This document shows, piece after piece, positions 47,776 to 63,063 of a stretch of 64,000 nucleotides of DNA (position 1 is the stretch's first letter; each line of letters opens with the position of its first letter). Source of the stretch: Elioraea tepida (GTDB lineage: Bacteria; Pseudomonadota; Alphaproteobacteria; Acetobacterales; Acetobacteraceae); NCBI RefSeq assembly GCF_019203965.1, contig NZ_CP076448.1, positions 1,255,001-1,319,000 of the forward strand. Reading direction: 5' to 3'. The notes under the pieces were generated by a model. That model was not told the DNA's origin. It searched no databases and worked only from the letters and a program-made list of their open reading frames with translations. The translations under genes and the position numbers were made by a program.

Positions 47776-48054
47776 TCACCCCTCGCGCTCACCGCCCGCG
47801 ATCCGGAGGCGGATCACGCCGCGGATGCCAGCATTCGGGTCCTGCGTCTTCCCCTTGCGGAGGATCTCGACCCGCCCCGCTCGGGCGAGCCGGAGCGCCT
47901 CCTCGCGCACGGGATGCATCAGGAGGCGCCAGACCTTCTCGTCGTCGCCGGCCAGCGCACGCGCCACCTCGGAGGGGCAGATGCTCCGCTCCGGCCCCCG
48001 TGCGGCGCAGAGAGCTAGGATCGTCCGCTCAATCGCGGTGCGGTCAGCCGTCAT
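47776..48054 (-). CDS. DUF3253 protein
   Basis: 92-residue DUF3253 protein, probably a small winged-helix fold. It reads ILALCAARGPERSICPSEVA followed by RALAGDDEKVWRLLMHPVRE and ends with a strand pair (GRVEILRKGKTQDPNAGIRG, VIRLRI). The function is unknown. It starts with ATGA overlapping the photolyase stop (48051-48054), so it is co-translated with a DNA-repair enzyme; similar DUF3253-photolyase pairing could suggest a link, but this is inference. Confidence 0.85.
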   Translation of the reverse strand: MTADRTAIERTILALCAARGPERSICPSEVARALAGDDEKVWRLLMHPVREEALRLARAGRVEILRKGKTQDPNAGIRGVIRLRIAGGEREG

Positions 48055-49544
48055 TCTCCGAGCGGCAGCGGGGCTTGCGCCCCCGCCTTCCGGCGTGCCC
48101 CGACCTGCTTCAGGCCGGACCGGCGGCTGCCATGGCGGCGCTGGATCGCATCCGCAGCGTCGCGATAGGCGCTGCCGCGTCGCACGGCCCAAAGCCTCTC
48201 GCGTGCTGCGCGCGCGAGCGCCTCGTGATCACCAAGCGGTGCCGGATAGGTTTCGACGCCCCCGAAACGCCACGGCATGTGCACGGACCCGCCCGGCAGG
48301 CCGCGCAACTCCGGGACCCAGCGTCGGACGAACACGCCGTCCGGGTCCTGGTCGAGCCCCTGCTTCACCGGGTTGTAGATCCGGATCGTGTTCACCCCTG
48401 TCACCCCGGACTGCATCTGCACCTGGCTCCAGTGGATCCCGGGCTCGTAGTCGGTGAACAGGCGGGCGAGATGGAGGCCGACCGCACGCCAGTCGAGCCC
48501 GAGATGCATGGACGCGACCGAGACGAGCATCGCCCGAGCGCGGAAATTGAGCCAGCCCGTCTCGGCAAGACAACGCATGCAGGCATCGAGGAAGGGCCAG
48601 CCGGTCCGGCCCTCCGCCCAGGCCCGGAACCGTGGGTCGTCCTCCCCCGCTCCGGCGAGCCCGCGATAGGCAGGGTGAAGGGCGCGGCGCTCGATCGCGG
48701 GCTCGGTCTCGATCTTCTGTATGAAATGGCAGTGCCAGGCAAGGCGCGTGAGGAAGCTGTCGATCCCCTTGCGCAACGGTCCCGCGGCGTTGGCGCGCGC
48801 CGACCGCGCGGCTTGGGCCGCCTCGCGCACCGAGAGCGTTCCGGCTGCGAGATGGGGTGAGAGACGCGAACACGCCTCCCACCCGGCGAGCGGCGAGGAC
48901 ATCGCGCGGCGGTAGGTGAGCGCGCGACCGGAGAGGAAGGACGCAAGCAGCGCCTCCGCCGCCGCCCGCCCACCGCGCTGCCGTCCCGGGCAGGGGTCGG
49001 GCGCGAGGCCAAGCGCCTCGGGAGAAGGGATCGTTCCGGGGTCGATGGCAACGGGGGCAAGCGCCTCGGGCGTCGGCACGAGCGGGGCGCGGGTGAAACG
49101 TTCCCACCGCGCCGCCCAGCCGTCGCGCGAGCCGAGAGCGCGGATCGCCCCGTTCTGCCGATGCTCGCGGAAAGGGATGCCGGCCGCTCGCGCCCAGGCC
49201 CGGACCGCGCGGTCGCGCGCGTAGTCGCGCTCGCCGGTGCTCTCCTGGTGTGCCTCGATCGCGCCGATGGTGACCGACGCGGCGAGCGCGCGGAACACTT
49301 CCACAGGCTCGCCGACACGAACGACCAGAGGCTGGCCAAGCGCGGCAAGGTCGGCCGAGAGCTCCGCCGCCGATTCCGCTTGGAACAGGTACTGCCGCGC
49401 GGACGCTTCGGGGGCGCGCCACTGGCCTGGCTCGACGATCCAGAGTGGCAGCACGGGGCCGGACGCCGCCGCGGCGACAAGCGGGGCGTGATCGGCGATC
49501 CTGAGGTCGCGCTTGAACCAGACGATGCTGACGGGGCGGCGCAT
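48051..49544 (-). CDS. Cryptochrome/photolyase family FAD-binding protein
   Basis: 497-residue light-dependent DNA-repair or photoreceptor flavoprotein. The N-terminal alpha/beta antenna domain begins SIVWFKRDLRIADHAPLVAA. The C-terminal FAD domain contains SRLSPHLAAGTLSVREAAQA, EGRTGWPFLDACMRCLAETG, GWLNFRARAMLVSVAS and DYEPGIHWSQVQMQSGVTGV. The tail is long and basic. The class (CPD photolyase, 6-4 photolyase or cryptochrome) cannot be fixed by eye. ATG 49544 gives MRRPVSIVWFKRDLR; an upstream extension is unconserved. It follows moeA by 47 bases. Confidence 0.9.
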   Translation of the reverse strand: MRRPVSIVWFKRDLRIADHAPLVAAAASGPVLPLWIVEPGQWRAPEASARQYLFQAESAAELSADLAALGQPLVVRVGEPVEVFRALAASVTIGAIEAHQESTGERDYARDRAVRAWARAAGIPFREHRQNGAIRALGSRDGWAARWERFTRAPLVPTPEALAPVAIDPGTIPSPEALGLAPDPCPGRQRGGRAAAEALLASFLSGRALTYRRAMSSPLAGWEACSRLSPHLAAGTLSVREAAQAARSARANAAGPLRKGIDSFLTRLAWHCHFIQKIETEPAIERRALHPAYRGLAGAGEDDPRFRAWAEGRTGWPFLDACMRCLAETGWLNFRARAMLVSVASMHLGLDWRAVGLHLARLFTDYEPGIHWSQVQMQSGVTGVNTIRIYNPVKQGLDQDPDGVFVRRWVPELRGLPGGSVHMPWRFGGVETYPAPLGDHEALARAARERLWAVRRGSAYRDAADAIQRRHGSRRSGLKQVGARRKAGAQAPLPLGE

Positions 49545-49591
49545 GGAGGGGAGATGGGGGCCGCGCGCAGGCGCGCCAGCGGGGCGGCCGG

Positions 49592-50848
49592 TCAGGCGAG
49601 CTCGCTGTAGGGCAGGAACGCCACCGTGTCTCCCGGGGCGACCGTGCGCACCTCCTCGCCGAGCTCGACCAGCCCGTCGCTCTCGACCAGAGAGGAGAGA
49701 AGCCCGGCCCCCTCGCGCGGGAACTTTCGCGCCTCCGTCGCGCCGTCTTCCCCCAGGGCGAGGGTGACGCGCACATACTCCCGCCGCCCCGGCTTCTTGC
49801 GATAGGCGAACGCCGCGCGCACCGCGAACCGCGCGGGCGGCGTGACCGTCGCGCCCATCAGCCGCAGCGCGACGGGGCGGACGACATGGGCGAAGGTGAC
49901 CATCACCGCGACCGGGTTTCCGGGAAGCCCGATGAAGGCCGTGCCGCCGACCTGGCCCATCGCCACCGGCCGGCCGGGCTTGATCGCAAGCCGCCACAGG
50001 AACAGAGACCCCGCCGCCTCGACGGCGGCCTTCACATGGTCCTCCTCCCCGGTCGAGACGCCGCCCGAGGTCAGGAGGAGGTCGTGCGCCGGCGCGGCGT
50101 CCCGGAGAGCCGAGGCCACAGCGTCGCGCCGGTCGGGCAGGATTCCGAGATCGGTAACGGCACAGCCGAGGCCGCGCAGAGCCGCGCCCAGCGTGAACCG
50201 GTTGCTGTCATAGAGCCGGCCTGGACCGAGCGGCGTGCCAGGCTCGGCGATCTCGTTTCCGGTCGAGAACACGGCGACACGGAGCGGGCGACGCACCTCG
50301 AGCGATGTGACCCCGATCGACGCGGCGAGGCCGACGTCCTGCGGACGGAGGCGACGTCCCGCGCGCAGGATCACACTCCCCGCAGCGACATCCTCGCCGG
50401 CCGCGCGCGCGTTCGCGCCACGCGCCAGACCAGGCGGAAGGCGCACCCTGCCGTCGGGCAAGGCTTCGGCATCCTCCTGCATGAAGACCGTATCCGCCCC
50501 CTCAGGCATCGGCGCGCCGGTGAAGATCCGGATCGCCTCGCCGGGGCGGATCGGCCTCCCCAGCGACCCACCCGCCGCCACCCTGCCGCCGACGGGAAGG
50601 AGCGTCTCGCCCTCCGGCGCGAGATCGGCGTGGCGGACGGCGTAGCCGTCGACGGCGCTGTTGGCGAAGGGAGGAACGTCGAGCGGCGAGCAGAGATCGG
50701 CCGCAAGCACGCGTCCAGCCGCCTCCGCAAGCCCGACGCGCTCCGTGCCGCTCACCGGCGGAAGACGCTCGGCGACCAGGGCGAGCGCTTCCTCCACACG
50801 CATGAGCGCGCCGCCGAAGGCAAAACAATCGTCGCTCAACTGGGCCAC
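49592..50848 (-). CDS. moeA: Molybdopterin molybdenumtransferase MoeA
   Basis: 418-residue enzyme inserting molybdate into adenylylated molybdopterin. The start MRVEEALALVAERLPPVSGT (after a short N-terminal tag) and PFANSAVDGYAVRHADLAPE near residue 60 are hallmarks. RIFTGAPMPEGADTVFMQED near 105, VFSTGNEIAEPGTPLGPGRL and LLTSGGVSTGEEDHVKAAVE near 255 line the active site, and FIGLPGNPVAVMVTFAHVVR follows. It is downstream of mobB and the formate dehydrogenase genes in the same direction, so it probably supports the dehydrogenase's cofactor. Confidence 0.95.
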   Translation of the reverse strand: MAQLSDDCFAFGGALMRVEEALALVAERLPPVSGTERVGLAEAAGRVLAADLCSPLDVPPFANSAVDGYAVRHADLAPEGETLLPVGGRVAAGGSLGRPIRPGEAIRIFTGAPMPEGADTVFMQEDAEALPDGRVRLPPGLARGANARAAGEDVAAGSVILRAGRRLRPQDVGLAASIGVTSLEVRRPLRVAVFSTGNEIAEPGTPLGPGRLYDSNRFTLGAALRGLGCAVTDLGILPDRRDAVASALRDAAPAHDLLLTSGGVSTGEEDHVKAAVEAAGSLFLWRLAIKPGRPVAMGQVGGTAFIGLPGNPVAVMVTFAHVVRPVALRLMGATVTPPARFAVRAAFAYRKKPGRREYVRVTLALGEDGATEARKFPREGAGLLSSLVESDGLVELGEEVRTVAPGDTVAFLPYSELA

Positions 50849-50860
50849 GCCGAGGATCCT

Positions 50861-51370
50861 TCAGGATTGGCGGCAGCGCAGCACCGCCTGCTCGATCACG
50901 AAGGCGGCGATCGCCTCGACATCGTCGAGGTCGAACACCGGCACGGTGCAGCCGGGCACGGCGCCGTCGGAGGCGACTGCCACCACGCTCGGATCGTCAG
51001 GCCAAAGCGGCGGCTTGCCGACGGCGGCGCGCCAGACCTCAAGCTTGCGGTGGCGGGACCGCTTGAACCCCTCGACCAGCACGAGATCGACCGGCGAAAG
51101 CCGAGCGGCCAGTTCCTCGAGCGTCAGCTCCGGCGCGCCGCGCAGCTCGTGGATGAGCGCGTATCGCGCGGCCGAGCTGACCAGAACCTCGGTCGCCCCC
51201 GCACGCCGATGCGTGTGGCTGTCCTTGCCAGGCGTGTCGAGGTCAAAGCCGTGATGGGCGTGCTTGATGGTCGAGACGGTGAGCCCGCGCGCGACCAGCG
51301 CCGGGATGAGCTTCGCAAGCAGCGTCGTCTTGCCGGAGCCGGACCAGCCGGCGATCCCGAACAGCGTCAT
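50861..51370 (-). CDS. mobB: Molybdopterin-guanine dinucleotide biosynthesis adaptor MobB
   Basis: 169-residue GTP-binding P-loop protein aiding bis-MGD formation by MobA. The Walker A is GIAGWSGSGKTTLLAKLIPA (residues 5-20), followed by TIKHAHHGFDLDTPGKDSHT and a Walker-B-like DLVLVEGFKRSRHRKLEVWR. ATG 51370 starts just downstream of a strong hairpin and no Shine-Dalgarno sequence is seen, so translation initiation is unusual. It is 12 bases from moeA and in the formate dehydrogenase operon. Confidence 0.93.
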   Translation of the reverse strand: MTLFGIAGWSGSGKTTLLAKLIPALVARGLTVSTIKHAHHGFDLDTPGKDSHTHRRAGATEVLVSSAARYALIHELRGAPELTLEELAARLSPVDLVLVEGFKRSRHRKLEVWRAAVGKPPLWPDDPSVVAVASDGAVPGCTVPVFDLDDVEAIAAFVIEQAVLRCRQS

Positions 51371-51382
51371 GGAAAGAGAATG

Positions 51383-51411: not shown

Positions 51412-51434
51412 GAGGCACATTGAGGTGGCCTGTC

Positions 51435-52460
51435 TCAGTCGGCGCCGGCCTTGCTGGCGCCGCGCGGAACAGAAGCGCCCCGTCCGCCGGACATCACCTC
51501 CTCGACCCACAGGCTGTGATGCTCCTTGGCCCAGTTCAGGTCGACCTTGCCGCTGCCCATCGCGGCGAAGGCTCCCTCCATGCCGACCGAGCCGATGTAG
51601 ATGTGGGCGAGGATGATCGCGATCATCAGGAGAGCGATCACACCGTGAAGCTGGGTCGCGAGCTGCATTCCCTCCATCGTGGTCACGAACTGGAAGGGGA
51701 ACATCATGATGAACCCGGTTACCGCGATCGCGCCGCCGCCGAGCACGACCAACCAGAAGATCACCTTCTGCCCGCCATTGAACTTCCGCGCGGGCGGATG
51801 TCCATGCCCGATCAGCCCGCCGCCGGCGGCGAACCACTTCACGTCGTCGCCGTTCGGGATGTTGTCCTTGATCCAGATGACGAGCATCAGGAGCACGCCG
51901 AGCGTGAAGGGGAAGGACAGGTAGTTGTGCGCGATCTTCCCCCACTGCGACCAGGCGGCGAACGCCTCCGGCCCCATCAGCGGCAGAAGCAGCTCCCGCC
52001 CGAAGCTGATGTTCAGCCCGGTGATGCCGAGGATGATGAAGGTCGAGGCGGTGAGCCAGTGCGCGAAGCGCTCGAGCCCGTTGAAGCGTTCGATCGTGCG
52101 CCCCGACAGCCCCGCCTCGACGCGAACCTTGCCGCGGATGAGGTAGAACAGCACGAGGACGGCGAGCATGCCGCCGATCGCGACACCGCCGATCCATTTC
52201 AGCGTGGTGCGCCAGAAATGCTGGAAGTCTCGCCCCCGGGGCTGGATCAGCAGCGCCGACTTCTGGTCGGGGATCGTCACGCGACCCTGAACGCTGCCCT
52301 GAAGATAGTTGAAGAGCATCTGCTCGTTCGCCGCCGAGGGCGACGCTGGCGCCTGGGCGGCCGCGGGGGGGAGCGAGGCCGGCAGGCTTGCCGCGGCAAG
52401 CCCGAGGCCAAGCAAGAGAGCGGCGACAACGCCGCGAAGCCGCTTGAGAAGTGGTCTCAT
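51435..52460 (-). CDS. Formate dehydrogenase gamma subunit (membrane cytochrome b)
   Basis: 341-residue membrane subunit passing formate electrons to quinone. It has an N-terminal signal-like segment (VVAALLLGLGLAAASLPASL), a periplasmic region to about residue 80, then four to five membrane helices with histidines in GLERFAHWLTASTFIILG, IAHNYLSF, QLHGVIALLMIAIILAHIYI that would ligate two b hemes, as in FdnI/FdoI. ATG 52460 has GGAG six bases upstream. Gene order alpha-beta-gamma on the minus strand, with an 85-base gap after the beta subunit. A hairpin follows its stop. Confidence 0.93.
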   Translation of the reverse strand: MRPLLKRLRGVVAALLLGLGLAAASLPASLPPAAAQAPASPSAANEQMLFNYLQGSVQGRVTIPDQKSALLIQPRGRDFQHFWRTTLKWIGGVAIGGMLAVLVLFYLIRGKVRVEAGLSGRTIERFNGLERFAHWLTASTFIILGITGLNISFGRELLLPLMGPEAFAAWSQWGKIAHNYLSFPFTLGVLLMLVIWIKDNIPNGDDVKWFAAGGGLIGHGHPPARKFNGGQKVIFWLVVLGGGAIAVTGFIMMFPFQFVTTMEGMQLATQLHGVIALLMIAIILAHIYIGSVGMEGAFAAMGSGKVDLNWAKEHHSLWVEEVMSGGRGASVPRGASKAGAD

Positions 52461-52545: not shown

Positions 52546-53142
52546 TCAGCCGGTCGTCATCTCCTTGTAGGCGGTGCGCCAGCCCCACGCCCCGGAGCCG
52601 TAGCCACGGCGTGTCACACGCTCGGCATAGATCTGCGCGATAATGTCGCCGTCACCGGCCAGCAGCGCCTTGGTCGAGCACATCTCGGCGCAGATCGGGA
52701 GCTTGCCCTCGGCGAGCCGGTTCGCGCCATACTTCGCGAACTCCGCCTGCGTGTTGTCGGCCTCCGGGCCGCCGGCGCAGAAGGTGCACTTGTCCATCTT
52801 GCCGCGGGTGCCGAAGTTGCCGAGCCGCGGGTATTGCGGCGCCCCGAACGGGCAAGCATAGAAGCAATAGCCGCAGCCGATGCACAGGTCCTTCGAGTGC
52901 AGCACCACGCCGTCGGCGGTAGTGTAGAAGCAATCCACCGGGCACACCGCGGCGCAGGGCGCGTCGGTGCAGTGCATGCAGGCCATCGAGATCGAGCGCT
53001 CGCCCGGCTTGCCGTCATTGATGGTGACGACGCGCCGGCGGTTGATGCCCCAGGGCACCTCGTTCTCGTTCTTGCAGGCCGTCACGCAGGCATTGCACTC
53101 GATGCAGCGGTCGCTGTCGCAGAGGAACTTCATGCGGGCCAT
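52546..53142 (-). CDS. fdh3B: Formate dehydrogenase beta subunit (four-cluster ferredoxin-like)
   Basis: 198-residue Fe-S subunit wiring the alpha subunit to the membrane gamma subunit. Four cysteine groups bind [4Fe-4S] clusters: CDSDRCIECNACVTACKNE, CMHCTDAPCAAVCPVDC, CIGCGYCFYACPFGAP, and KCTFCAG...CAEMC. Unlike E. coli FdnH there is no C-terminal membrane helix, matching the shorter FDH3-type beta subunits. It is 26 bases from the alpha subunit. It has no signal of its own and would be exported by hitch-hiking with the Tat-signal alpha subunit. Confidence 0.94.
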   Translation of the reverse strand: MARMKFLCDSDRCIECNACVTACKNENEVPWGINRRRVVTINDGKPGERSISMACMHCTDAPCAAVCPVDCFYTTADGVVLHSKDLCIGCGYCFYACPFGAPQYPRLGNFGTRGKMDKCTFCAGGPEADNTQAEFAKYGANRLAEGKLPICAEMCSTKALLAGDGDIIAQIYAERVTRRGYGSGAWGWRTAYKEMTTG

Positions 53143-53168: not shown

Positions 53169-56123
53169 TCACGCTGCGCGAATTTGGCACAGCGTGCACT
53201 TGGTCTCCTGCATCGAGGTGACCGGATCGAAGCCGTAGGTCGTGACCGTGTTCACGCTCTCGCCGAGCACGATCGGGTCGGTGCCGGCGGGATACTTGCG
53301 CCTCTGGTCCTCCTGCATGAACCAGCCGGCGAAGTGGAACGGCATGAACGCCACGCCGCGCCCGACCCGGTCGGTGACGAGCGCCTTGACGCGGATGAAC
53401 TTGCCCTGTGGCATCTCCGGGCCGTTCACGAGCACCCACTGGCCATCGCGGATGTTCCGCTCCGCCGCATCCTGGGTGTTGATCTCGATGAACATGTCCT
53501 GCTGCAGCTCGGCGAGCCACTTGTTCGAGCGCGTCTCCTCGCCGCCGCCCTCGTATTCGACGAGGCGCCCCGACGTCAGGACGATCGGGAAGTTGCGCGC
53601 GACGTTGTTCGCTACCGCACGCTCCTGGATCGTCTTGCCGATGTTCCGCACCCGATGCGCCATGAAGTTGTCGCGGGTCGGGTACTGCGCCACGAGGTCG
53701 GGGCGGGGGCTGTAGATCGGCTCGCGGTGCACCGGGATCGGGTCGGGCAGGTTCCAGGCGTTCGCCCGCGCCTTCGCGTTGCCGAACGGCGAACAGCCGT
53801 GCTTCAGCGCCACGCGGATGATGCCGCCCGAGAGGTCGGTCGCCCAGCTCACGCGATCGGCGTTCGCGCCGCCGATCCGCTCGATGGTCGCCCGCTCCGC
53901 CTCCGTCAGGTCCTTGTCCCAGCCGAGACGCTTGAGCACGGCGTAGGTGAACTCGGGGTAGCCGTCGGTCAGCTCAGAGCCCTTGGAATAGCTGCCCTCG
54001 GCGAGCAGCGACACGCCGTTGCGCTCGACGCCGAAGCGCGCACGGAACGTTCCGCCGCCGTCCATCACGTGCTCGTTCGTATTGTAGAGGATGTGCGTTC
54101 CGGGGTGGCGAAGCTCCGGCGTGCCCCAGCATGGCCAGGGCAGGCCGTAGTAGTCCCCCCTCACCTCGGGAGGCGCGTCGGGCTTGGCGCGCAGCGTGAC
54201 GATGTCGAAGGCGCCCTGATTGGCCATGTGCGCCTTCAGACGCTCGGGGCTCTGGCCGGTGTAGCCGGTCGACCACGCGCCGCGGTTGATCTCCCGCAGC
54301 ACGCTCTCGGGTTCCGGAACCTTGGCCTTGACCGTGATGTTCTTGAACATCTCGTTGGCGAAACCGAGCTTCTCGGCAAGACGGTAGATCACCTCGTAGT
54401 CGGTCTTGCTCTCGAAGATCGGCTCGACGATCTTCTGGCCCCACTGAACCGAGCGGTTGGAGGCGGTGCGGCTGCCGTCGCACTCGAACTGGGTGCAGAT
54501 CGGCAGGAGGTAGGTGTTGTCGCGCCGGTTCGCGAGCACCGCGAAGGTGGTCGGGTGCGGGTCGGCCACCACGAGGAGGTCGAGCTTCTCGAGCCCCTTT
54601 GCCGCCTCGGGCATCCGGGTGACAGTGTTGCCGCCATGACCGAACACCAGCATGGCGCGGAAGTTCGGCTGCCCGGCCACAAGGTTCGCGGTGTCGCCCG
54701 ACCCGGGCTCGAGGAGGATCGCGTCGAAGTAGCGCGTGGTGGTGATGCCGGGCATCTCCATCATGCGCTTGCGCGCCGCGTCATCCGCGTTGGGCGGGCC
54801 GAACCGGCCGCGAAGATACTCATAGGAGACATCCCACACCCGGCCCCAGTGACGCCACGCGCCCTCGTCGAGCCCGTAATAGGCTGGGAGCGTGGTCACA
54901 TCGAGACCGAGGTCGGTCGCCCCCTGAACGTTGCAGTGGCCGCGGAAGATATTCGCGCCCGTGCCGGGGGAACCGACATTGCCGGTGGCAAGCAGGAGGA
55001 TGCAGGCCGCGCGCACGTTCGCCGTGCCCACGGTCTTCTGCGTCATCCCCATGCACCAGACGAGGGTGGCGGGCTTTTGCTTCGCGAACATCTCCGCCAC
55101 CTTGCGAAGCTGCGCGCCGGGAACGCCGCTGACGCGCTCGACCTCGGCCGGCGTCCACTTCGCCACTTCCTTCCGCACGTCCTCCATCCCGTAGACGCGC
55201 TGGCGGATGAACTCCTTGTCCTCCCAGCCGTTCTCGAAGATGTGCCAGAGGATGCCCCACAGCACGGGGATGTCCGTGCCGGGGCGGAACCGGACATACT
55301 CTGTGGCGTGCGCCGCGGTGCGCGTGAAGCGCGGATCGGCGACGATCAGGTTGGCGCGGTTGATCTCCTTGCCCTGGAGAACGTGCTGCAGCGACACCGG
55401 GTGCGCCTCGGCCGGGTTGCCACCCATGATCAGGATGGTCTTGGCGTTGCGGATGTCGTTGTAGCTGTTGGTCTGCGCCCCGTAGCCCCAGGTATTGGCA
55501 ACCCCCGCGACCGTCGTCGAGTGGCAGATGCGGGCCTGATGGTCGACGTTGTTGGTGCCCCAGAACGCGGCGAACTTGCGGTAAAGATAGGCGCCTTCGT
55601 TCGAGAACTTGGCCGAGCCGAGCAGGAACACCGCGTCGGGGCCGGCCTTGGCGCGGATATCGAGAAGCTTGTCGCCGATCTCGTTGATAGCCTGGTCCCA
55701 GCTCAGCCGGGTCCACTGGCCGTTCACAAGCTTCATCGGGTACTTCAGGCGCCGGTCACCGTGCACGAGCTCGCGCACCGCGGCGCCCTTGGCGCAGTGC
55801 GTCCCGCGGTTGATCGGGCTCTCCCAGGCCGGCTCCTGGCCGACCCACACCCCGTTCTGCACCTCGGCGATCACGGTGCAGCCGACCGAGCAGTGGGTGC
55901 AGATGTTCTTCCTCTTCACCACCGCCACGCCGGGCTGCATCGGCCCGGCGTCCGCCTTCTTCACCGTGCCAGCACCGAGCGCGCCGAGCGCGCCGAGACC
56001 AGAGGCGACGATCCCCGACTTGCGGAGGAAGCCGCGACGGTCCATCGCCCCGCCGGAAAGGCCGGCGAAGGCCGAGGCGAGACCCGTGCGCGAGACCTTG
56101 CCCTCGCTGCGCTTGATCAGCAT
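53169..56123 (-). CDS. Formate dehydrogenase alpha (catalytic, molybdopterin) subunit
   Basis: 984-residue periplasmic catalytic subunit oxidising formate to CO2 at a Mo- or W-bis-MGD centre. ATG 56123 has GGGAGG five bases upstream. The Tat signal (MDRRGFLRKSGIVASGLGAL) is at residues 27-46. The proximal cluster is NICTHCSVGCTVIAEVQNGV plus NRGTHCAKGAA. The metal ligand is a cysteine, not selenocysteine: VDHQARICHSTTVAGVAN near residue 190. GHGGNTVTRMPEAAKGLEK and the long FRARFGVERNGVSLLA region are FDH-type, and the C-terminal dinucleotide-binding domain includes FPIVLTSGRLVEYEGGG. It ends with a CTLCQ motif, which may be chance. Preceded by a Tat-signal small gene. Confidence 0.96.
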   Translation of the reverse strand: MLIKRSEGKVSRTGLASAFAGLSGGAMDRRGFLRKSGIVASGLGALGALGAGTVKKADAGPMQPGVAVVKRKNICTHCSVGCTVIAEVQNGVWVGQEPAWESPINRGTHCAKGAAVRELVHGDRRLKYPMKLVNGQWTRLSWDQAINEIGDKLLDIRAKAGPDAVFLLGSAKFSNEGAYLYRKFAAFWGTNNVDHQARICHSTTVAGVANTWGYGAQTNSYNDIRNAKTILIMGGNPAEAHPVSLQHVLQGKEINRANLIVADPRFTRTAAHATEYVRFRPGTDIPVLWGILWHIFENGWEDKEFIRQRVYGMEDVRKEVAKWTPAEVERVSGVPGAQLRKVAEMFAKQKPATLVWCMGMTQKTVGTANVRAACILLLATGNVGSPGTGANIFRGHCNVQGATDLGLDVTTLPAYYGLDEGAWRHWGRVWDVSYEYLRGRFGPPNADDAARKRMMEMPGITTTRYFDAILLEPGSGDTANLVAGQPNFRAMLVFGHGGNTVTRMPEAAKGLEKLDLLVVADPHPTTFAVLANRRDNTYLLPICTQFECDGSRTASNRSVQWGQKIVEPIFESKTDYEVIYRLAEKLGFANEMFKNITVKAKVPEPESVLREINRGAWSTGYTGQSPERLKAHMANQGAFDIVTLRAKPDAPPEVRGDYYGLPWPCWGTPELRHPGTHILYNTNEHVMDGGGTFRARFGVERNGVSLLAEGSYSKGSELTDGYPEFTYAVLKRLGWDKDLTEAERATIERIGGANADRVSWATDLSGGIIRVALKHGCSPFGNAKARANAWNLPDPIPVHREPIYSPRPDLVAQYPTRDNFMAHRVRNIGKTIQERAVANNVARNFPIVLTSGRLVEYEGGGEETRSNKWLAELQQDMFIEINTQDAAERNIRDGQWVLVNGPEMPQGKFIRVKALVTDRVGRGVAFMPFHFAGWFMQEDQRRKYPAGTDPIVLGESVNTVTTYGFDPVTSMQETKCTLCQIRAA

Positions 56124-56134
56124 CGACGCCTCCC

Positions 56135-56347
56135 TCACTGCTCGTAGCGGTTGGTGCGGTAGAAGGCCTGGATGTGCGGGCTGTTCGGCTGGTAGCGCCG
56201 CTTGCGCGCTTCCTGGGCGCTCTCGCGTGCGGCAGCCGGCGTCGCCAGCAGCGGCGCCGAGACAGCGGCCGCTCCGGCGGACAGCCCGAGCGACTTGAGG
56301 AACCCACGCCGCGCCGGCGCGGCGTCAGCCTTCTCTGTCTTCATCAT
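56135..56347 (-). CDS. Formate-dehydrogenase-linked small Tat-signal protein
   Basis: 70-residue protein of the type annotated as formate dehydrogenase region TAT target. It has a twin-arginine signal (ARRGFLKSLGLSAGAAAVSA) and a short mature part ending SPHIQAFYRTNRYEQ. Its role is unknown; it always accompanies the dehydrogenase genes. Its TGA lies 11 bases before ATG 56123 and overlaps an alternative GTG start of the alpha subunit. The mature peptide would be about 30 residues. Confidence 0.9.
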   Translation of the reverse strand: MMKTEKADAAPARRGFLKSLGLSAGAAAVSAPLLATPAAARESAQEARKRRYQPNSPHIQAFYRTNRYEQ

Positions 56348-56414: not shown

Positions 56415-57050
56415 TCAGGCAGGAAGCGTGGCCGCCTCAGCTTCGATCTCGACGAACACGCGCCCGAGCCGGCCGACCGCCCGGTAGAACCGGGCGTGCT
56501 CGGCCGTCTCGAGATCCCGAAAGAAGGTCCCCGCCCAGGGAGCGATATGGCGCGCGAAGAACCGCGGCGCCTCCTCGGCCCCCGCCTCGAACGCGCCGGA
56601 GAGGAGCCCCGCCATGATCTCGGCAAGTGTTGCGATATGGTCCTCCGGTTCGCCCACCCCGTCGGCGCGGGCAAGCCCGAGCCGCTCCATGTCCGCCCGA
56701 ACTTTGGCGAGCGGCTTCTCGTGCAGGAAGCCCGTGAGATAGTAGCTCGCATAGGGCAGAAGCTCGCCGCGCCCGAGCCCGATGAAGAGATCGTGGAACT
56801 CGCGCGCAAGCGCGGCTTCGTTCGCCTCGCGGGCGGAAGCGGCCAGCATGCCGCGCGCCGCGCCAAGCGGCGTCTCGTCCGCCTCGAGCGACGAAAGCTG
56901 TTCAAGAAGCTCCTGTCCAGGTGGGCGGAACAGAAGCGTGGAGAGCAGGGACCAGTGCCGCGCCCGCATCACATCCACGGGGTCGACCGCCGCGTCGCGG
57001 CTGCTCTCCGCACCAGGGCCAAGCCGTGCCACGGCAAGCTGTTCGGCCAT
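56415..57050 (-). CDS. TorD/DmsD-family chaperone
   Basis: 211-residue cytoplasmic chaperone that binds the Tat signal of a molybdoenzyme until the cofactor is inserted. The family stretch GELLPYASYYLTGFLHEKPL then AKVRADMERLGL near residue 100 is followed by GEPEDHIATLAEIMAGLLSG, the E-P-x-D-H motif near residue 135. ATG 57050 with GAGGGG upstream is preferred; a GTG at 57101 would add 17 residues. The partner is most likely the formate dehydrogenase alpha subunit encoded next. The gene is the first behind a promoter-like sequence at 57203-57230. Confidence 0.88.
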   Translation of the reverse strand: MAEQLAVARLGPGAESSRDAAVDPVDVMRARHWSLLSTLLFRPPGQELLEQLSSLEADETPLGAARGMLAASAREANEAALAREFHDLFIGLGRGELLPYASYYLTGFLHEKPLAKVRADMERLGLARADGVGEPEDHIATLAEIMAGLLSGAFEAGAEEAPRFFARHIAPWAGTFFRDLETAEHARFYRAVGRLGRVFVEIEAEAATLPA

Positions 57051-57202
57051 CAGAACCAGCCCCTCAGCGACCCAAAGCCTCGCCGCGCTGGAGGCCAGCA
57101 CAAGCCCTGACTTGCACCGTTGTTCGGCGCTTCCGCCGCTTGCATCCGTGTCGGCACCAAGGCCAGCACGTCCCCGTTCCTCCCTACCTCGATGTGTGAG
57201 AG

Positions 57203-57339: not shown

Positions 57340-58080
57340 TCAGGTAGGGGTCGCGCCGCCGTGACGCGGCCGCCGCGCCCCGCCCCTGCTCGCCTGACCA
57401 TCGGCCGGCGCCTCGAGGCTCGCGGGAACCGCGGGAGCCGTTGCCGGGGGGATGGCGTCGGGCGCGGTGACCACCCGGCCCGCCGACTCGGAGAGGCGAA
57501 TTGCTGCCTGGGGCGGCGAACCGGCTCCCTCCGCCCCGCCCGCGTCGGGCGCTTCCCCTGCCATGCCGTCGCTCGGGCTTCCGGGCTTGTCCTCGGCACG
57601 CTCGCGGCGAACGAGGCCAAGGATCCGGTCCGCCAAAGCCTCCACGTCCGGCCCGGTTGCGATCTCGGCCACGTAACCCGGCGCCCCCCCCGGCACGTTC
57701 CAGTCCCACGCATAGTCGGCCGGGCCGATGAAGTCGCGGATGGTGGGATCGAGGCTCCAGACCCGCCGAAGCGCGGCATTCCGAAGCGCTGCCGGAACCC
57801 CCTTGCGGAGGAAGACGCTGATGTCGCTCTCGGCCGTGAGCGTCTCGATCGGCGGCAGGGAGGAGAGGTCGAGCTCGGGCTCGGGCTCGGGCTCGCCGAC
57901 GGCTTCGGCCCGCGCCGCGACGGGGGGCGGCGGGACTGGCTCGGTGGCGGGCGCGACCCCCGACGGCGCGCCCGGGGTGACGGTCGGAGGCGGCTCCTGG
58001 CGGGATCGCTCCCCGCCCGAGCGCTTGAGCCGCGACCAGCGGGCGAGGAAGCCTTCGCCGGAGCGCTCCTCCTCAGACAT
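57340..58080 (-). CDS. DUF3306 protein, formate dehydrogenase accessory
   Basis: 246-residue DUF3306 protein. The N-terminal FLARWSRLKR motif (residues 10-19) is conserved in the family. A Pro/Glu-rich linker contains EPEPEPELDLSSLPPIETLT. The core SDISVFLRKGVPAALRNAAL then RRVWSLDPTIRDFIGPADYA and WDWNVPGGAPGY is highly family-specific. The C-terminal third is low complexity. No signal or membrane helix, so cytoplasmic. Its start overlaps the DUF3305 stop by eight bases. Function unknown; always found with formate dehydrogenase genes as far as I know. Confidence 0.9.
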   Translation of the reverse strand: MSEEERSGEGFLARWSRLKRSGGERSRQEPPPTVTPGAPSGVAPATEPVPPPPVAARAEAVGEPEPEPELDLSSLPPIETLTAESDISVFLRKGVPAALRNAALRRVWSLDPTIRDFIGPADYAWDWNVPGGAPGYVAEIATGPDVEALADRILGLVRRERAEDKPGSPSDGMAGEAPDAGGAEGAGSPPQAAIRLSESAGRVVTAPDAIPPATAPAVPASLEAPADGQASRGGARRPRHGGATPT

Positions 58081-58576
58081 CGCGCGCGACCCGTCGGCGC
58101 ACCCCGAGGCTCTCGGGGTCAGCACGATCACGCTTGCGCTTGTGGAAGCCGCGCTCGACGTGATGCGCGGCGACGAACGCCTCGAGCGCCTCGCGGATCT
58201 GCCCCGGCATCGGCACGGTCTCGATCACGTCCGACCCGGCGGTGGTCATCGCCTCCGCTTCGCCAGGATCGGCGAGCACGGCCACAAGCTCCATCCCTGG
58301 CGGAGTGCTCGAGGGCCTGAGCACCACCCAAAGCACCGGCGCCCCGCTCTCGAGGTTCGACTTGTAGTTCGGCGTCTCGGAGGAAAAGAAGCTCACCGTG
58401 GTGCTGCCGGCGATGTAGGCGGTGAGCCCTTTCTCTTTGCGCAGGACCGTCCACGGCGCCGCCGCGGTCTCGCCCGGCAGCACCGCGACCGGCACCCAGA
58501 GATCCTCGGCCCAGGGCGTCGACCCGGCACGACGTTCCACCACGACGGCGACGGGGTGATGCTCCTCGGCCAGCAT
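58073..58576 (-). CDS. DUF3305 protein, formate dehydrogenase accessory
   Basis: 167-residue DUF3305 protein. Core: VAVVVERRAGSTPWAEDLWV followed by PVAVLPGETAA, a beta-rich region (FFSSETPNYKSNLESGAPVL, WVVLRPSSTPPGMELVAVLA), then MPGQIREALEAFVAAHHVER and a basic C-terminus. No known catalytic motif. Co-translated with DUF3306. Role unknown; probably works in cofactor handling or assembly of the dehydrogenase, inferred from context only. Confidence 0.9.
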   Translation of the reverse strand: MLAEEHHPVAVVVERRAGSTPWAEDLWVPVAVLPGETAAAPWTVLRKEKGLTAYIAGSTTVSFFSSETPNYKSNLESGAPVLWVVLRPSSTPPGMELVAVLADPGEAEAMTTAGSDVIETVPMPGQIREALEAFVAAHHVERGFHKRKRDRADPESLGVRRRVARDV

Positions 58577-58586
58577 CGCTTCCGCC

Positions 58587-59624
58587 TCAGGCGGCCTGCG
58601 CCTGCCGAAGCGGCAGGCCGGCGAGCAGGTTCTGCGGCTTCATCCGCACCGTTCGCGCCGGCGTCATGGCAAGAGCGAGATAGACCGGGCGGCCGGCAAC
58701 GCGGGGCAGCATCTCGGCAGGATCCTCGAACTCGAGGCGGAACAGGGCGAGGATCCGGCCCAAGTCCTCCGCCCCCACACGCTCGCCGTGCCAGAGCCGG
58801 GTGCAGATCGCCGTCGCCTCCTGATCGAGGCCGACATACCAAGCCCAGGCCTCGTCATGGATCGTCTGCAGCGGCTGGACCGAGACGCGCACGCCGACGA
58901 GATGACGCACCCAGGCCTCGATCACGCGCGCGAGCGCGTCCTGGCCGTCGCGCCCGAAGGTCAGGTCGAGCACGGTATCGAACCGGTCCGACCGGTCCCA
59001 GTAGATCGCGGCATTGTCGCGCGACAGAACGTCGAGCTCCACCGAGCGAAGCTTCGCCCCGGCTTCGGCGATCATCTGCCCCAGCACGCCGAGGCCGGCG
59101 TGGCGCTCCCGCGCCTCTCCGGCCGCCGCCTGGACCGTCTCCTCGTCGGCGAGCAGGAGGTTGCCGCCCTCGGTCGAGACACGCTGCGGGCGGAAGAACA
59201 GCTCCGCCGCGCGCAGCCGGATCGGGTCGTCGGTCTCGTCGAGGATGTTGCGCAGGATCAGCTGCGCGAGCTGGGCGAGGAACAGCGGCGGGGTGCCGCG
59301 AAGGTCGCCGCGGAACAGCGCCGTGTAGGCCGACTCGACCGTCGGGTGGGCGAGCAGGTGGTCGCGGAACGCGAGCCAAGCCTGCCAGTTCTCCCGCGCA
59401 TCGGCATCGGCGATCGCCTCGACCTCGACGGCAGCGACGCCGCGGCGCGGATTGGCGAGCAGGGAGGCGTGCAGAGCGCGCTCCGCCGCGCAGGCCTCTG
59501 CAGGCGGCACGAGCTCCGGCCGGGCGAGCCAGGCAGCAATGAGGGCGTCCGTCACCGCAAGCCCCCCCGCCTCGGTTCGCTCCACGAGGTGATGGCCGCA
59601 CGAGAGCCAGAAATCGGGCCGCAC
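58587..59624 (-). CDS. DUF6352-type protein of the formate dehydrogenase cluster
   Basis: 345-residue cytoplasmic protein with no recognised catalytic motif. It begins MRPDFWLSCGHHLVERTEAG and is largely helical (LFLAQLAQLILRNILDETDD, AAELFFRPQRVSTEGGNLLL). Later blocks include LRSVELDVLSRDNAAIYWDR and LRTF-like VSVQPLQTIHDEAWAWYVGL. The family name is from memory and should be checked. It is 10 bases upstream of DUF3305 in the run. Whether it is a chaperone or scaffold cannot be told from sequence. Confidence 0.75.
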   Translation of the reverse strand: MRPDFWLSCGHHLVERTEAGGLAVTDALIAAWLARPELVPPAEACAAERALHASLLANPRRGVAAVEVEAIADADARENWQAWLAFRDHLLAHPTVESAYTALFRGDLRGTPPLFLAQLAQLILRNILDETDDPIRLRAAELFFRPQRVSTEGGNLLLADEETVQAAAGEARERHAGLGVLGQMIAEAGAKLRSVELDVLSRDNAAIYWDRSDRFDTVLDLTFGRDGQDALARVIEAWVRHLVGVRVSVQPLQTIHDEAWAWYVGLDQEATAICTRLWHGERVGAEDLGRILALFRLEFEDPAEMLPRVAGRPVYLALAMTPARTVRMKPQNLLAGLPLRQAQAA

Positions 59625-59635
59625 GCCGCTCCTCC

Positions 59636-60184
59636 TCAGCCGTTCGCCCGACGCACGAGTGCGACGAGATCGACCCGCTCCGCGCGCTCCTCCGCCGCGT
59701 CGTCGCTGCGCACGAGGCCGATCACGGGCAGAGCCTGCGGGGACCCCCTGCGCCTGAGGGTGCGGAACCGCTCCCGAACCCCCTCCGCTTCGACGCTGCG
59801 GCTGAGCGCGATCACCGTTCCCGGCTCATGCCCGGAGGCGAGCTCCTCAGAGAAGGCGAGCTCCTCCTCGGCGACGGCGAGCGCCGACGCATCGTCGGGA
59901 GCGCCGAACTGGTCGCGCAGACGTGCGGCGAGAGAGGCGGCCGCAGCCGCACGCTCCTCCTCCGTGACCGAGCCCACACTGACGAGGGTCGAGAACCCGA
60001 AGGAGCCGAGGCCGAGGAAGCCCGAGCGGAAGGCTTGGCGCGCCCGGCCCGTGAGCGCGGCGGGGTCCACGTCCCAGAACATGAAACTGCCGACCACCGC
60101 GATCTCGCCCGGCTCGGCGGCGCGATCGAACACCACCGTGTCGGAGGGGTCGAGCCTAAGGGTGCGCAGGATCCGCCGTGTCAT
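59636..60184 (-). CDS. DUF6505-type protein of the formate dehydrogenase cluster
   Basis: 182-residue protein starting MTRRILRTLRLDPSDTVVFD, then RAAEPGEIAVVGSFMFWDVD and a hydrophobic block GFLGLGSFGFSTLVSVG. The C-terminal half contains VIALSRSVEAEGVRERFRTL. No motif recognised; the family name is tentative. The start overlaps the stop of the BPL-like gene by four bases (ATGA), and DUF6352 follows after 11 bases, so all are expressed together. Confidence 0.72.
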   Translation of the reverse strand: MTRRILRTLRLDPSDTVVFDRAAEPGEIAVVGSFMFWDVDPAALTGRARQAFRSGFLGLGSFGFSTLVSVGSVTEEERAAAAASLAARLRDQFGAPDDASALAVAEEELAFSEELASGHEPGTVIALSRSVEAEGVRERFRTLRRRGSPQALPVIGLVRSDDAAEERAERVDLVALVRRANG

Positions 60185-60903
60185 GCGACGAGATCGAGCC
60201 ATTGGGGGGCGGCGAGCGCCTCGGCAAGCGGCCGTCGCGTCTCCACCCCTGCCTCGTCCACCAGCACAAGGTCGCCCGAGGGGTCGATCCCACGCCGCGC
60301 CGCCTTCGGCTCCTCGAGGCGCAAGAGATACTGCTCCGCCACCGGGGCGAGGCCCTCGTCCTGCCAGGTGTAGAGCCCGACCATGAGATGCCGCGCGAAG
60401 CGCTCGGCGAGCCGGGCCCCGTCCTGGTCCTCGAAGCCCTGCTGCTCGAGCGAGGTGCGGTCGGGGAAATGCCCGGTCTCGATTCCGGGCGGTTCGGCGA
60501 GCCTGAGCGCGGCGTGCAGGACCATCCAGGCGGGGGCCTGGAGCTCGCCCGCGACGGGGGCCCAGGCGAGCCGCATGCCGCCGAGCCGGGCGCCGTCGAC
60601 GCGGATGAGATCGGGCCAGACGAAGCCGATCGGGTGCTCGGGCGGAGCGGCGACGGCAAGAGCATCGGCGAGCGCAGCCATGCCGACATAGAGGGCGAGC
60701 CGCGCGCGGGCGAGCGGCATCGCGGGTTCGAGCACCACCGCGCAGTCGAAGGTAAGGCCGCCACGGGCGAGCACCAGCGTCCCCGCCCCCGCCTCAGGCG
60801 CGATCGCGCAGGCGTGGCGGAAGGCGTCCCCGCCTTCGCGCAGAGTCACGCCCCTGAAAAGGGGGGGAAGGTCGAGTCGTCGGTCAAGCTCGGCGGCGCG
60901 CAT
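60181..60903 (-). CDS. Biotin/lipoate-protein-ligase-like protein with altered catalytic lysine
   Basis: 240-residue protein of the BPL/LplA/LipB superfamily. The segment IGFVWPDLIRVDGARLGGMR near residue 95 aligns with the ligase signature (KWPND...K-x-x-G), but the catalytic lysine position reads R (ARLGG) and WPND reads WPDL. The C-terminus (RGIDPSGDLVLVDEAGVETR) resembles the small SH3-like domain following BPL cores. It may be a binding-only derivative or an enzyme with changed chemistry. First gene of a run leading to DUF6505, DUF6352, DUF3305 and DUF3306, divergent from the Fe-S protein gene. Confidence 0.78.
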   Translation of the reverse strand: MRAAELDRRLDLPPLFRGVTLREGGDAFRHACAIAPEAGAGTLVLARGGLTFDCAVVLEPAMPLARARLALYVGMAALADALAVAAPPEHPIGFVWPDLIRVDGARLGGMRLAWAPVAGELQAPAWMVLHAALRLAEPPGIETGHFPDRTSLEQQGFEDQDGARLAERFARHLMVGLYTWQDEGLAPVAEQYLLRLEEPKAARRGIDPSGDLVLVDEAGVETRRPLAEALAAPQWLDLVA

Positions 60904-60945
60904 GGCGTCGTGGGCTGCCCCCGCTGGCGGTCGTGGTCGCGCCGT

Positions 60946-60953
60946 CATATATG
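60946..60953. promoter_or_regulatory. Palindromic AT-rich box in the divergent formate dehydrogenase accessory promoter
   Basis: CATATATG sits midway in the 102-base spacer between start codons at 60903 and 61006, an AT-rich island in GC-rich DNA. It could serve as a -10 element in both directions or part of a regulator site. No clear -35 partner was found. Confidence 0.35.
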
Positions 60954-61005
60954 CGCGGGGCGGTCGGTTTCCCAGGCGGGCGCCGGCAGGCTCCGGGGGA
61001 GGCGC

Positions 61006-63063
61006 ATGGCAGAGTCAGAGCGGCGCGTGTTCGTATGCTCCTGCGAGGAGACGATGCCGCTCGACCTCGGCGGCATCGCCCGCGTCTGCGCCCGCGCGCT
61101 TCCCGGCGCAAAGGTCGAGGAGGCGCGCCAGCTGTGCCGGGCGGAGCTCGCGCGTTTCGAGGCGGCTCTCGGCGGGTCGGACGTGCTTGTGGCCTGCACC
61201 CAGGAGGCGCCGCTCTTCGCCGAGCGGGCGGAGGAGGCGGGGCACCGGGGCCGGCTCGATACCGTCAACATCCGCGAACAGGCGGGCTGGAGCGACGAGG
61301 CGAAGGCGGCGACACCGAAGATCGCCGCGCTGATCGCCGCCGCCGCCGTGCCGATGCCCGAGACCGCGATCGTCACCTACACCTCGGAGGGGGTGACGCT
61401 CGTCTACGGCCGAGACGAGACAGCGATCGAGGCGGCGCGCCAGCTCGAGAACCGGCTGAACCTCACCGTTCTTCTCACGCGGCCGAAGGACGTGCTGCCG
61501 CCGCGCACAACCACCTTCCCCGTCCTCAAGGGGACCATACGCTCGGCGCGCGGGCATCTCGGCGCCTTCGAGCTCGTGGTCGATGACTACGCCGCCCCCG
61601 CCCCGTCCTCCCGCGCCGCGCTCGTCTTCGGCCCGCCCCGCGACGGGGCGAAGAGCCGCTGCGACGTGATCCTCGACCTCTCGGGCGGGGCGCCCCTGTT
61701 CCCGGCCCATCATAAGCGTCCGGGCTATCTGCGCGCCGACCCAGGCGACAGGGCGGCGGTGCAGAGAGCGATCTTCCAGGCGGCGGAGCTCGTCGGCACC
61801 TTCGACAAGCCGCGCTTCGTGACCTTCACCGCGAGCCTCTGCGCGCATTCCCGCAACAAGCGCACCGGCTGCACCCGCTGCCTTGACCTCTGCCCGGTCG
61901 GCGCGATCGCTCCTGCGGGTGATCATGTCGCGATCGACACGAACATCTGCGCCGGCTGCGGCTCCTGCAGCGCCGTGTGCCCAACAGGGGCGGCCTCCTA
62001 CGCGCTCCCGCCGGCGGATGCGCTTCTGCGCCGGCTGCGCGCGCTCCTGCTCACCTATCTCGAGGCGGGGGGGAAGCGGCCAGTTCTGCTCCTGCACGAG
62101 GACGAGCATGGCGCGCCGCTGATCGAGGCGCTCGCGCGCCATGGCCCCGGCTTGCCGGCGCGCGTGCTTCCCTTCAACGTGAACGAGGTGACAGCGTTGG
62201 GTCTCGAGCTCATCGCTGCCGCCTTCGCCTACGGCGCGGCAGAGCTCCGCGTTCTGATGGGCGCGCGCCCGCGCGACGACACCGCCGCACTCGACCGGAC
62301 GCTGACGCTCGCCGATGCGGTGCTACGTGGCCTCGGCTTCGGTGAGGAGCGGGTCGGGGTGATCGCTGCGGATGACCCGGACGCGCTCGCCGCGGCGCTG
62401 CGCACGCTGACGCGTCGTGACGGTGTGGCGGAGCCGAGGCGCTTCCTCGCGATGGGCGACAAGCGCGGCGTGCTGCAGACGGCACTGAAGGAGCTCGGCA
62501 AGGCAGCGCCCGCCCCTGCGGCGATCATTCCGCTTCCCGAGCGCGCTCCCTTCGGCACGCTTCGGGTCGACACCGCGGGCTGCACGCTCTGCCTCTCCTG
62601 CGTCTCCGTCTGCCCGACCGGGGCGCTGCGCGACAACCCCGACCGCCCGATGCTCACCTTCACCGAGGACGCCTGCGTGCAATGCGGCCTTTGCGCCGCG
62701 ACCTGCCCGGAGAAGGTGATCGTACTCGAGCCGCGGCTGAATCTCACGCCGGAGGCCGCAGAGCCGCGGCTCATCAAGGAGGAGGAACCGTTCGCCTGCA
62801 TACGCTGCGGCACCCCGTTCGGCACGAAGAGCACGATCGAGCGGATCGCGGCGAAGCTCTCGGCCTCGCACTGGATGTACAAGGGCTCGGCGGCGAATCT
62901 CGATCTCATCCGCATGTGCGCCGATTGCCGCGCCATCACGGTGACGGAGACGGGCGGGCTCGACCCCTATGCGGCCGGGGAACGACCGCGGATCGTCACG
63001 ACCGACGACTACCTCGCCGCGCGCGGCGAAGGCGCCCCCGACGACCCGAAGAAGCTGAACTGA
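61006..63063 (+). CDS. Multi-cluster Fe-S protein of the formate dehydrogenase locus
   Basis: 685-residue soluble iron-sulfur protein. After VFVCSCEETMPLDLGGIARV and VACTQEAPLFAERAEEAG there are four ferredoxin-like cysteine groups: TGCTRCLDLCPVGAI and ICAGCGSCSAVCPTGA near residues 285-325, then GCTLCLSCVSVCPTGAL and ACVQCGLCAATCPEKVI near residues 525-580. Two more Cys pairs (FACIRCGTPFGTK, MCADCRAIT) lie at the end and may bind a further metal. ATG 61006 has GGGGGAGG three bases upstream. Related to 4Fe-4S proteins of the HybA/NrfC-like double-cluster type; redox partner unknown, probably electron transfer linked to formate dehydrogenase. Divergent from the BPL-like gene. Confidence 0.88.
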   Translation: MAESERRVFVCSCEETMPLDLGGIARVCARALPGAKVEEARQLCRAELARFEAALGGSDVLVACTQEAPLFAERAEEAGHRGRLDTVNIREQAGWSDEAKAATPKIAALIAAAAVPMPETAIVTYTSEGVTLVYGRDETAIEAARQLENRLNLTVLLTRPKDVLPPRTTTFPVLKGTIRSARGHLGAFELVVDDYAAPAPSSRAALVFGPPRDGAKSRCDVILDLSGGAPLFPAHHKRPGYLRADPGDRAAVQRAIFQAAELVGTFDKPRFVTFTASLCAHSRNKRTGCTRCLDLCPVGAIAPAGDHVAIDTNICAGCGSCSAVCPTGAASYALPPADALLRRLRALLLTYLEAGGKRPVLLLHEDEHGAPLIEALARHGPGLPARVLPFNVNEVTALGLELIAAAFAYGAAELRVLMGARPRDDTAALDRTLTLADAVLRGLGFGEERVGVIAADDPDALAAALRTLTRRDGVAEPRRFLAMGDKRGVLQTALKELGKAAPAPAAIIPLPERAPFGTLRVDTAGCTLCLSCVSVCPTGALRDNPDRPMLTFTEDACVQCGLCAATCPEKVIVLEPRLNLTPEAAEPRLIKEEEPFACIRCGTPFGTKSTIERIAAKLSASHWMYKGSAANLDLIRMCADCRAITVTETGGLDPYAAGERPRIVTTDDYLAARGEGAPDDPKKLN

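Follow-up and report, generated by a model that had tools for sequence, protein, structure and literature searches.

A stretch of 64,000 nucleotides from the single-contig, 3.37 Mb genome of Elioraea tepida (C1:1255001-1319000; hereafter the window, in whose coordinates positions are given unless stated otherwise) contains at 49592-63063 a formate dehydrogenase (FDH) island which, in our judgement, probably consists of an FDH3-type enzyme and its own cytoplasmic maturation line of accessory proteins. Most likely, six cytoplasmic accessory proteins, namely DUF3305, DUF3306, DUF6352, DUF6505, a biotin protein ligase-like (BPL-like) protein and a multi-cluster Fe-S protein (fes), build the metal centres of the FDH before it is exported. 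The strongest single result is that dependency on the catalytic subunit FdhA is independent of linkage, as seen in genomes in which DUF6352 is encoded away from FdhA. All genes named in a first-pass annotation of this DNA, which had been made from the sequence alone, were recovered by Pfam or NCBIfam profile matches.

In 259 evenly drawn genomes of Pseudomonadota, with a threshold of E up to 1e-100 for FdhA, the proteins FdhA, DUF3305 and DUF3306 were each detected in 35 genomes, and these 35 were identical for all three; every match for DUF3305 (36/36) and for DUF3306 (36/36) was located within 12 kb of an FdhA. DUF6505 (19/259 genomes) and DUF6352 (13/259 genomes) occurred only inside the FdhA set, 18 of the 19 DUF6505 and 9 of the 13 DUF6352 matches being located within 12 kb of FdhA; for DUF6352, one of two pieces in genome G231 was entered. 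The family of the BPL-like protein (PF16917) is present overall in 152 of the 259 genomes, and the 19 strongest of these (E up to 4.7e-27), on which the co-occurrence count is based, are the 19 DUF6505 genomes. Among them, the PF16917 match of genome G016 is partial (41-182 of 183), falls in a frame of 753 residues located 868 kb away from FdhA and may belong to another subfamily. None of DUF3305, DUF3306, DUF6352, DUF6505 and PF16917 was found in the E. coli control genome. The hypergeometric values for these co-occurrences ignore the relatedness of the genomes; since families f1, f2, f8 and f12 contain genomes both with and without the set, common descent alone is insufficient to explain the co-occurrence. 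The gene-neighbourhood survey that had been proposed in the first-pass annotation therefore finds these families together with FDH and not mostly without it.

A comparable pattern could result from a horizontally inherited block of genes in which some of the DUF proteins are unrelated to FDH, as joint transfer alone can yield conserved order, and DUF3305 genes are indeed plasmid-borne in several genera (found in 88 of the 72,556 plasmid records), with the whole cluster on one of these plasmids. However, in 4 of the 13 survey genomes with DUF6352 its gene is more than 100 kb away from FdhA, and all 13 possess FdhA. A profile scan of named genomes confirmed 549 DUF6352 loci, of which the best 80 were analysed; the closest relative among these belongs to an Elioraea metagenome-assembled genome (MAG) and is 82% identical. 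FdhA is inside 44 of these best 80 loci, two of the FdhA being fragments (L145, L151). From the 36 FdhA-less loci, 30 were entered into a genome-wide search, the others (L082, L103, L114, L125, L128, L137) being cut contigs with neighbouring accessory genes, and 29 of the 30 genomes carry FdhA elsewhere. The exception, a 2.2 Mb MAG (L142), is the one candidate for the presence of DUF3305, DUF6352 or DUF6505 without FDH3. Also, G016 has scattered genes for DUF6505 and DUF6352 and has retained FdhA. Considering these data, joint travel without functional connection appears very unlikely. Among the neighbours of the scattered DUF6352 and DUF6505 loci (L041-L045) no Mo-cofactor gene was recognised by eye; near the unlinked DUF6505 gene of G016 (L045 5733-6218) there is a gene which, by eye, resembles formate-tetrahydrofolate ligase.

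The enzyme of the island is encoded on the minus strand by fdhX (56135..56347), fdhA (53169..56123), fdhB (52546..53142) and fdhC (51435..52460), followed by genes for MobB (50861..51370; PF03205, 1e-50) and MoeA (49592..50803; MoeA_N, 8.8e-48). FdhA is a molybdopterin catalytic subunit (Pfam Molybdopterin, 4.4e-46) with the twin-arginine translocation (Tat) motif RRGFL, and both a Tat motif and the Cys-His motif ARICHS, which we take to be the active site, are present in 36/36 FdhA loci; GHxNVQG was dropped as an active-site motif because it varies (D, C or T). FdhB passes the NCBIfam model for FDH3 beta subunits (NF038355 FDH3_beta; 339.3 bits, cut-off 240), and the cytochrome b gamma subunit FdhC scores 150.7 bits with TIGR01583 (cut-off 115.85) and matches Ni_hydr_CYTB of Pfam (4.2e-25). 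FdhX, a small Tat-signal protein of FDH regions, stays under the cut-off of TIGR02811 formate_TAT (38.5 bits, cut-off 48.45). FdhA is below the cut-off of the general FDH-alpha equivalog TIGR01591 (476.7 bits, cut-off 666.25), which excludes only the general equivalog, as no FDH3-alpha model is listed. Judged by its sequence, the island enzyme is an FDH3-type membrane-bound FDH, FdhXABC, with formate oxidation as the predicted reaction, and the earlier identification of an FDH with Tat signal is borne out by the RRGFL motif of FdhA and the score of FdhB. In the annotation of plasmid pB of Sinorhizobium meliloti LMB1, the homologue is named fdh3B and the genes follow in the same order (fdh3B, DUF3305, DUF3306, DUF6352, DUF6505, 'biotin/lipoate--protein ligase family protein', TorD), and the genes for MobA and FdhD are separated from the cluster by a few others. 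The enzyme itself is therefore of a known kind, whereas the curated family NF038355 leaves the accessory genes uncovered. In the available text of PMC12180729, fdh3DABC of Methylorubrum extorquens PA1 is described as periplasmic, and its identity with the window enzyme is putative. Genes for TupB-like permeases are located near the cluster in L046, L051, L054, L055, L062, L064 and L065, and TupA-like genes in L051, L054, L055 and L062; as the L055 pair, the only two proteins scanned, scored too low for either curated model (TupA, 182.9 bits, cut-off 400; TupB, 165.6 bits, cut-off 320), tungsten use is a lead only. In four loci (L047, L048, L053, L079) small related proteins adjoin FdhC, and the one in L047 has, by eye, a secreted-like N-terminus and matches no Pfam family.

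The accessory genes belong to the same minus-strand order, BPL-like, DUF6505, DUF6352, DUF3305, DUF3306, TorD, FdhX, FdhA, FdhB, FdhC, MobB and MoeA, and fes (61006..63063, plus strand, 685 residues, Pfam Fer4 families) is divergent from this operon, with 57 bases between its start and that of the BPL-like gene. Overlaps of 4 bases between BPL-like and DUF6505 and of 8 bases between DUF3305 and DUF3306 occur in the window, and FdhX and FdhA would overlap by 4 bases if FdhA started at the GTG at 56138. In two sets of relatives, in which start codons were picked by hand as nearest to the start in the window, the DUF3305-DUF3306 overlap is kept in 32/35 and 43/47 and the BPL-DUF6505 overlap in 11/17 and 39/48. 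The tight coupling that had been read from overlaps of 4-8 bases is thus real in the window and conserved in relatives. Of 37 FdhA matches in the 35 genomes, 36 loci were fetched, the one left out being a second FdhA of genome G240. DUF3305, DUF3306, TorD, FdhA, FdhB and FdhC are present in 36/36 FdhA loci and fes in 34/36. BPL-like and DUF6505 are add-ons in the Alphaproteobacteria and one further family (f41), and DUF6352 is an add-on in part of the Alphaproteobacteria and a few other groups. On the FdhA tree, for which presence labels of L046-L049 and L070 were set by hand from genome-level results and the WD40 gene just outside the window was added, DUF6505 requires 2 changes and DUF6352 requires 5, whereas 500 shuffles never gave fewer than 8 and 6, respectively, and both are therefore lineage-bound.

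The Fe-S protein allows a different interpretation of the accessory genes, namely as a cytoplasmic electron-transfer or regulatory branch in which fes takes electrons from formate oxidation or reports it, with the DUF proteins as partners. It has two dicluster-type regions, of which one (526-567) is a canonical 8-Cys dicluster and the other (279-325) has 7 conserved Cys, and in addition a C-terminal CxxC...CxxC pair (598-641); 19 Cys are conserved in 34/34 sequences, and the protein is found in nearly all loci. Its divergent transcription in the window is what a separate unit could show. However, the Tat motif of FdhA in all loci would place the enzyme outside the cytoplasm, apart from fes, which has no signal peptide, and for this reason the interpretation ranks lower. 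Moreover, in loci outside the Alphaproteobacteria such as L073 and L075-L078, fes lies within a one-strand run DUF3305-DUF3306-fes-TorD-FdhX-FdhA-FdhB-FdhC, which makes it a core member and not a neighbouring unit, and by eye no flavin, NAD or hydrogenase gene recurs in the 11 loci listed gene by gene. We consider an electron-transfer or regulatory branch unlikely. The first-pass annotation had left the choice between a dedicated assembly module and an electron-transfer module; that the module is dedicated is strongly supported, as the families follow FdhA even when unlinked, and of the two roles assembly has the better support.

For DUF3305 (58073..58576, minus strand; PF11749, 2.2e-37) and DUF3306 (57340..58080, minus strand; PF11748, 5.8e-21), gene context points to maturation. 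The chaperone gene following them in the window (56415..57101, minus strand; start uncertain, 57101, 57050 or 56969) encodes a NarJ/TorD-family protein (PF02613, 2.8e-29) and in this respect resembles the TorD/NarJ chaperones, or redox enzyme maturation proteins, whose genes stand beside those of their enzymes. In two alphaproteobacterial genomes (L164, L168) there is a run FdhD-MobA-DUF3305-DUF3306, followed in L164 by TorD, so that the pair has the proteins that produce the finished cofactor on one side and the apo-enzyme's chaperone on the other. In one genome (L070), DUF3306 and TorD are fused in a single frame of 365 residues. NCBIfam holds a model for MobA-DUF3305 proteins (NF011058), which at 1e-45 is matched by 118 of 318 Alphaproteobacteria, mostly in the MobA part only. 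In 13/36 FdhA loci (L046, L055-L057, L062-L066, L069, L071, L072, L079), one seed detected a gene resembling ApbC/NUBPL, for which parsimony requires 4 gains or losses on the FdhA tree; a NUBPL-type NTPase domain and an FeS_assembly_P domain are present in both examples that were scanned. FdhD is present in 35/35 FDH3 genomes, and in the window's genome it is encoded side by side with MobA at G000:C1:2022681-2024070, about 0.7 Mb from the island. FdhE, an FDH accessory factor of E. coli, differs in its distribution: PF04216 was matched in 1/35 FDH3 genomes, with the E. coli control positive, and by none of the window proteins in the Pfam search nor by any protein of the window's genome. A long hydrophobic stretch was seen in none of DUF3305, DUF3306, DUF6352 and DUF6505 of the window, and BPL and fes have one borderline stretch each. 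In Shewanella oneidensis, according to the available text of PMC2535785, a regulator mutant shows lowered expression of SO4503 (FdhD), SO4504 and SO4505 (hypothetical proteins), SO4506 (Fe-S) and SO4509 (FdhA), and gene order suggests that SO4504 and SO4505 correspond to DUF3305 and DUF3306. Deletion of SO4508 or SO4512, FDH accessory proteins which would correspond to FdhX, caused moderately slower growth, as did deletion of either FdhA, in the accessible part of PMC3623810.

The BPL-like protein (60181..60948, minus strand; PF16917 BPL_LplA_LipB_2, 2.9e-52) is a special case, because by its family membership and by the alignment of BirA proteins from the Protein Data Bank (PDB) at E of about 3e-6 it might be taken for an active ligase that attaches lipoate or biotin to a subunit of the enzyme or to fes. 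At the position which we take to be equivalent to the catalytic lysine K183 of BirA, however, the window protein has R, the 18 sequences aligned have R, L, V, S or E, and 52 further sequences never have K, giving 0/70 overall. As the catalytic lysine is absent, the protein is a pseudo-ligase that cannot be filed as a working ligase, and the reading as active enzyme was rejected as extremely improbable; neither did Pfam list a lipoyl or biotinyl domain for any scanned window protein. The protein belongs to the family of PDB entry 3bfm (E 4.2e-91), which was solved without a function and deposited as biotin protein ligase-like and which in the alignment also has no lysine at this site. A tie of 3bfm to FDH3 was not found in the literature searched, the name '3bfm' being met only in an unrelated paper. 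DUF6505 (59636..60184, minus strand; PF20115, 1e-52) accompanies BPL-like in 18/18 FdhA loci and in 48/52 loci among the best 80 of DUF6352, usually overlapping it, with BPL-like standing without DUF6505 in four loci (L088, L090, L112, L115), and the two proteins are probably a pair. A fold for nucleotide-linked rings that is kept beside the genes for molybdopterin guanine dinucleotide (MGD), and without its chemistry, suggests a carrier role for the pseudo-ligase.

Before export by the Tat system, enzymes of the FdhA type must be furnished in the cytoplasm with bis-MGD (Mo or W) and its sulfur ligand as well as with an Fe-S cluster; MoeA, MobB, MobA and FdhD make and sulfurate bis-MGD, and a TorD-type chaperone holds the FdhA precursor with its Tat signal. 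In the pathway we favour, FdhD and MobA, encoded elsewhere in the genome, and MobB and MoeA of the island would supply the finished cofactor, and DUF3305 with DUF3306 would hand it over from MobA/FdhD to the FdhA held by TorD, an assignment to which we incline with some confidence. At the same step, fes, together with an ApbC carrier in some lineages, might provide electrons or clusters, a proposal with slightly less than even chances. The pseudo-ligase with DUF6505, mainly in Alphaproteobacteria, and DUF6352, in part of the lineages, would act as further maturation factors, for which the chances seem to us evenly balanced. Finally, FdhA would be exported and join FdhB and FdhC. A fully specified and previously undescribed cofactor-insertion machine can be imagined, in which the nucleotide-and-ring pocket of the pseudo-ligase (with DUF6505) has been adapted to carry bis-MGD, while DUF3305/DUF3306 bring this cofactor from MobA/FdhD to the FdhA held by TorD. 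The polyferredoxin (with ApbC in some lineages) would give the electrons and clusters required for sulfuration and closure of the Mo/W site in air and so take the place of FdhE; in this detail the scheme is speculative and rather unlikely. Each accessory biochemical step is inferred from what was directly observed, that is, from gene content, strict co-occurrence, conserved coupling, context and the loss of the lysine.

Several observations weigh against a maturation line. The fusion of DUF3306 with TorD is a single case, and the MobA-DUF3305 model NF011058 was over its cut-off in 0 of 318 Alphaproteobacteria. The ApbC-like gene is found in 0/80 DUF6352 loci and not in the window, and the one clear ApbC of the window's genome is encoded far from the island. 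The Fe-S protein is missing near FdhA in 2/36 loci, and G240 has just one DUF3305 and one DUF3306, both beside one of its FdhA copies, with neither of them near the second. Mutant or binding data on the DUF proteins were not found in the literature searched. Nor did either of the two predicted folds hint at a cofactor: the models of DUF6352 (58587..59624, minus strand, 345 residues; PF19879, 1e-73) and DUF3305 are of high confidence (pLDDT 93.8 and pTM 0.91; pLDDT 91.8 and pTM 0.80, respectively) and gave no credible match in the PDB (for DUF6352, a Foldseek E of 2.0 and a VIA Z of 2.4 at best, among 233 chains; for DUF3305, a Foldseek E of 0.34 and a VIA Z of 2.6 at best, among 998 chains), a result which, for predicted models, demonstrates neither a new fold nor a function. 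By sequence, the PDB yielded nothing for DUF6352 up to E 10 and best values of E 0.29 for DUF6505 and E 1.1 for DUF3305. Homology between DUF3305 and DUF6505 (hhalign probability 0.2%) and between DUF6352 and TorD (0.8%) was rejected.

Regarding the borders of the island, the first-pass annotation had placed the left one at 47776, and this has to be revised, as DUF3253 (47776-48192) and a photolyase (48051-49604) have homologues in 0/35 other FdhA loci and 0/80 DUF6352 loci and are taken as mere neighbours. Beyond the right end of the window, a minus-strand gene (L161 1520-2791; about 64019-65290 in window coordinates) encodes a protein of WD40 repeats that has a cytochrome c domain at its C-terminus, and it adjoins one for MoeA fused to a PBP-like domain (L161 2788-4740), with a second MoeA-like gene nearby (L161 4743-5639), and all three may be part of the island. 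Homologues of the WD40-cytochrome c protein occur in 10/36 FdhA loci and 26/80 DUF6352 loci, and it is a candidate periplasmic electron partner of the enzyme. Beside the island, frames at 63205-63965, possibly one gene split over two frames, have by eye a PEP-CTERM/VPLPA-like tail. The tRNA-like structure that ARAGORN predicts at 46851-46946, whose anticodon has four bases and to which no amino acid is assigned, is probably spurious.

The first-pass annotation had considered the island an undescribed system, and this holds for a part of it only. In the available text of PMC4464133, DUF3305 and DUF3306 are reported to accompany fdhGHI operons that also have a hybA (4Fe-4S) gene and a chaperone of the NarJ family, as they adjoin FDH genes and such a chaperone in the window; a value of 60% is given there for dmsD-linked operons. 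This text differs in calling the two proteins putative membrane proteins, without a role, a label against which the lack of a hydrophobic stretch speaks, and in not mentioning DUF6352, DUF6505 or BPL-like. In the S. meliloti record, the genes already carry their family names. Beyond PMC4464133, DUF3306 was met only as a peptide match in one other paper, with no role in the text available; the names DUF6352 and DUF6505 were not found among 5.39 million papers of the open literature, to which the search was confined, subscription papers being outside it; and the name PF16917 was met there only in passing in a paper on Wolbachia biotin ligases, whose accessible text gives no biochemical role. For these remaining families, the literature searched thus offered no role. 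FdhD and FdsC are bis-MGD chaperones and, being dedicated cytoplasmic factors for insertion of the FDH cofactor, are among the closest in kind to what is proposed here, with FdhD co-occurring in every FDH3 genome, whereas at the level of Pfam profiles the DUF proteins of the window give no FdhD match. FdsC is named in the available parts of PMC11540253 and PMC13396061. The link of DUF3305 and DUF3306 with FDH and, as a kind, dedicated maturation factors of molybdo-enzymes are therefore the known part.

Bench work on the island would be worthwhile, given a sharp prediction and tractable organisms. In Cupriavidus, mutants in membrane FDH may grow without any phenotype if the cells also have a soluble FDH, according to the available text of PMC11540253. 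The accessible part of PMC13396061 describes maturation of the catalytic subunit as the major bottleneck for Me-FDH1, an FDH of another type, made in E. coli. FDHs are wanted for CO2-to-formate chemistry, and if the accessory proteins are the missing factors of FDH3, a defined gene set could be supplied together with the enzyme. If the proposal is true, it would provide functions for five protein families and for structure 3bfm.

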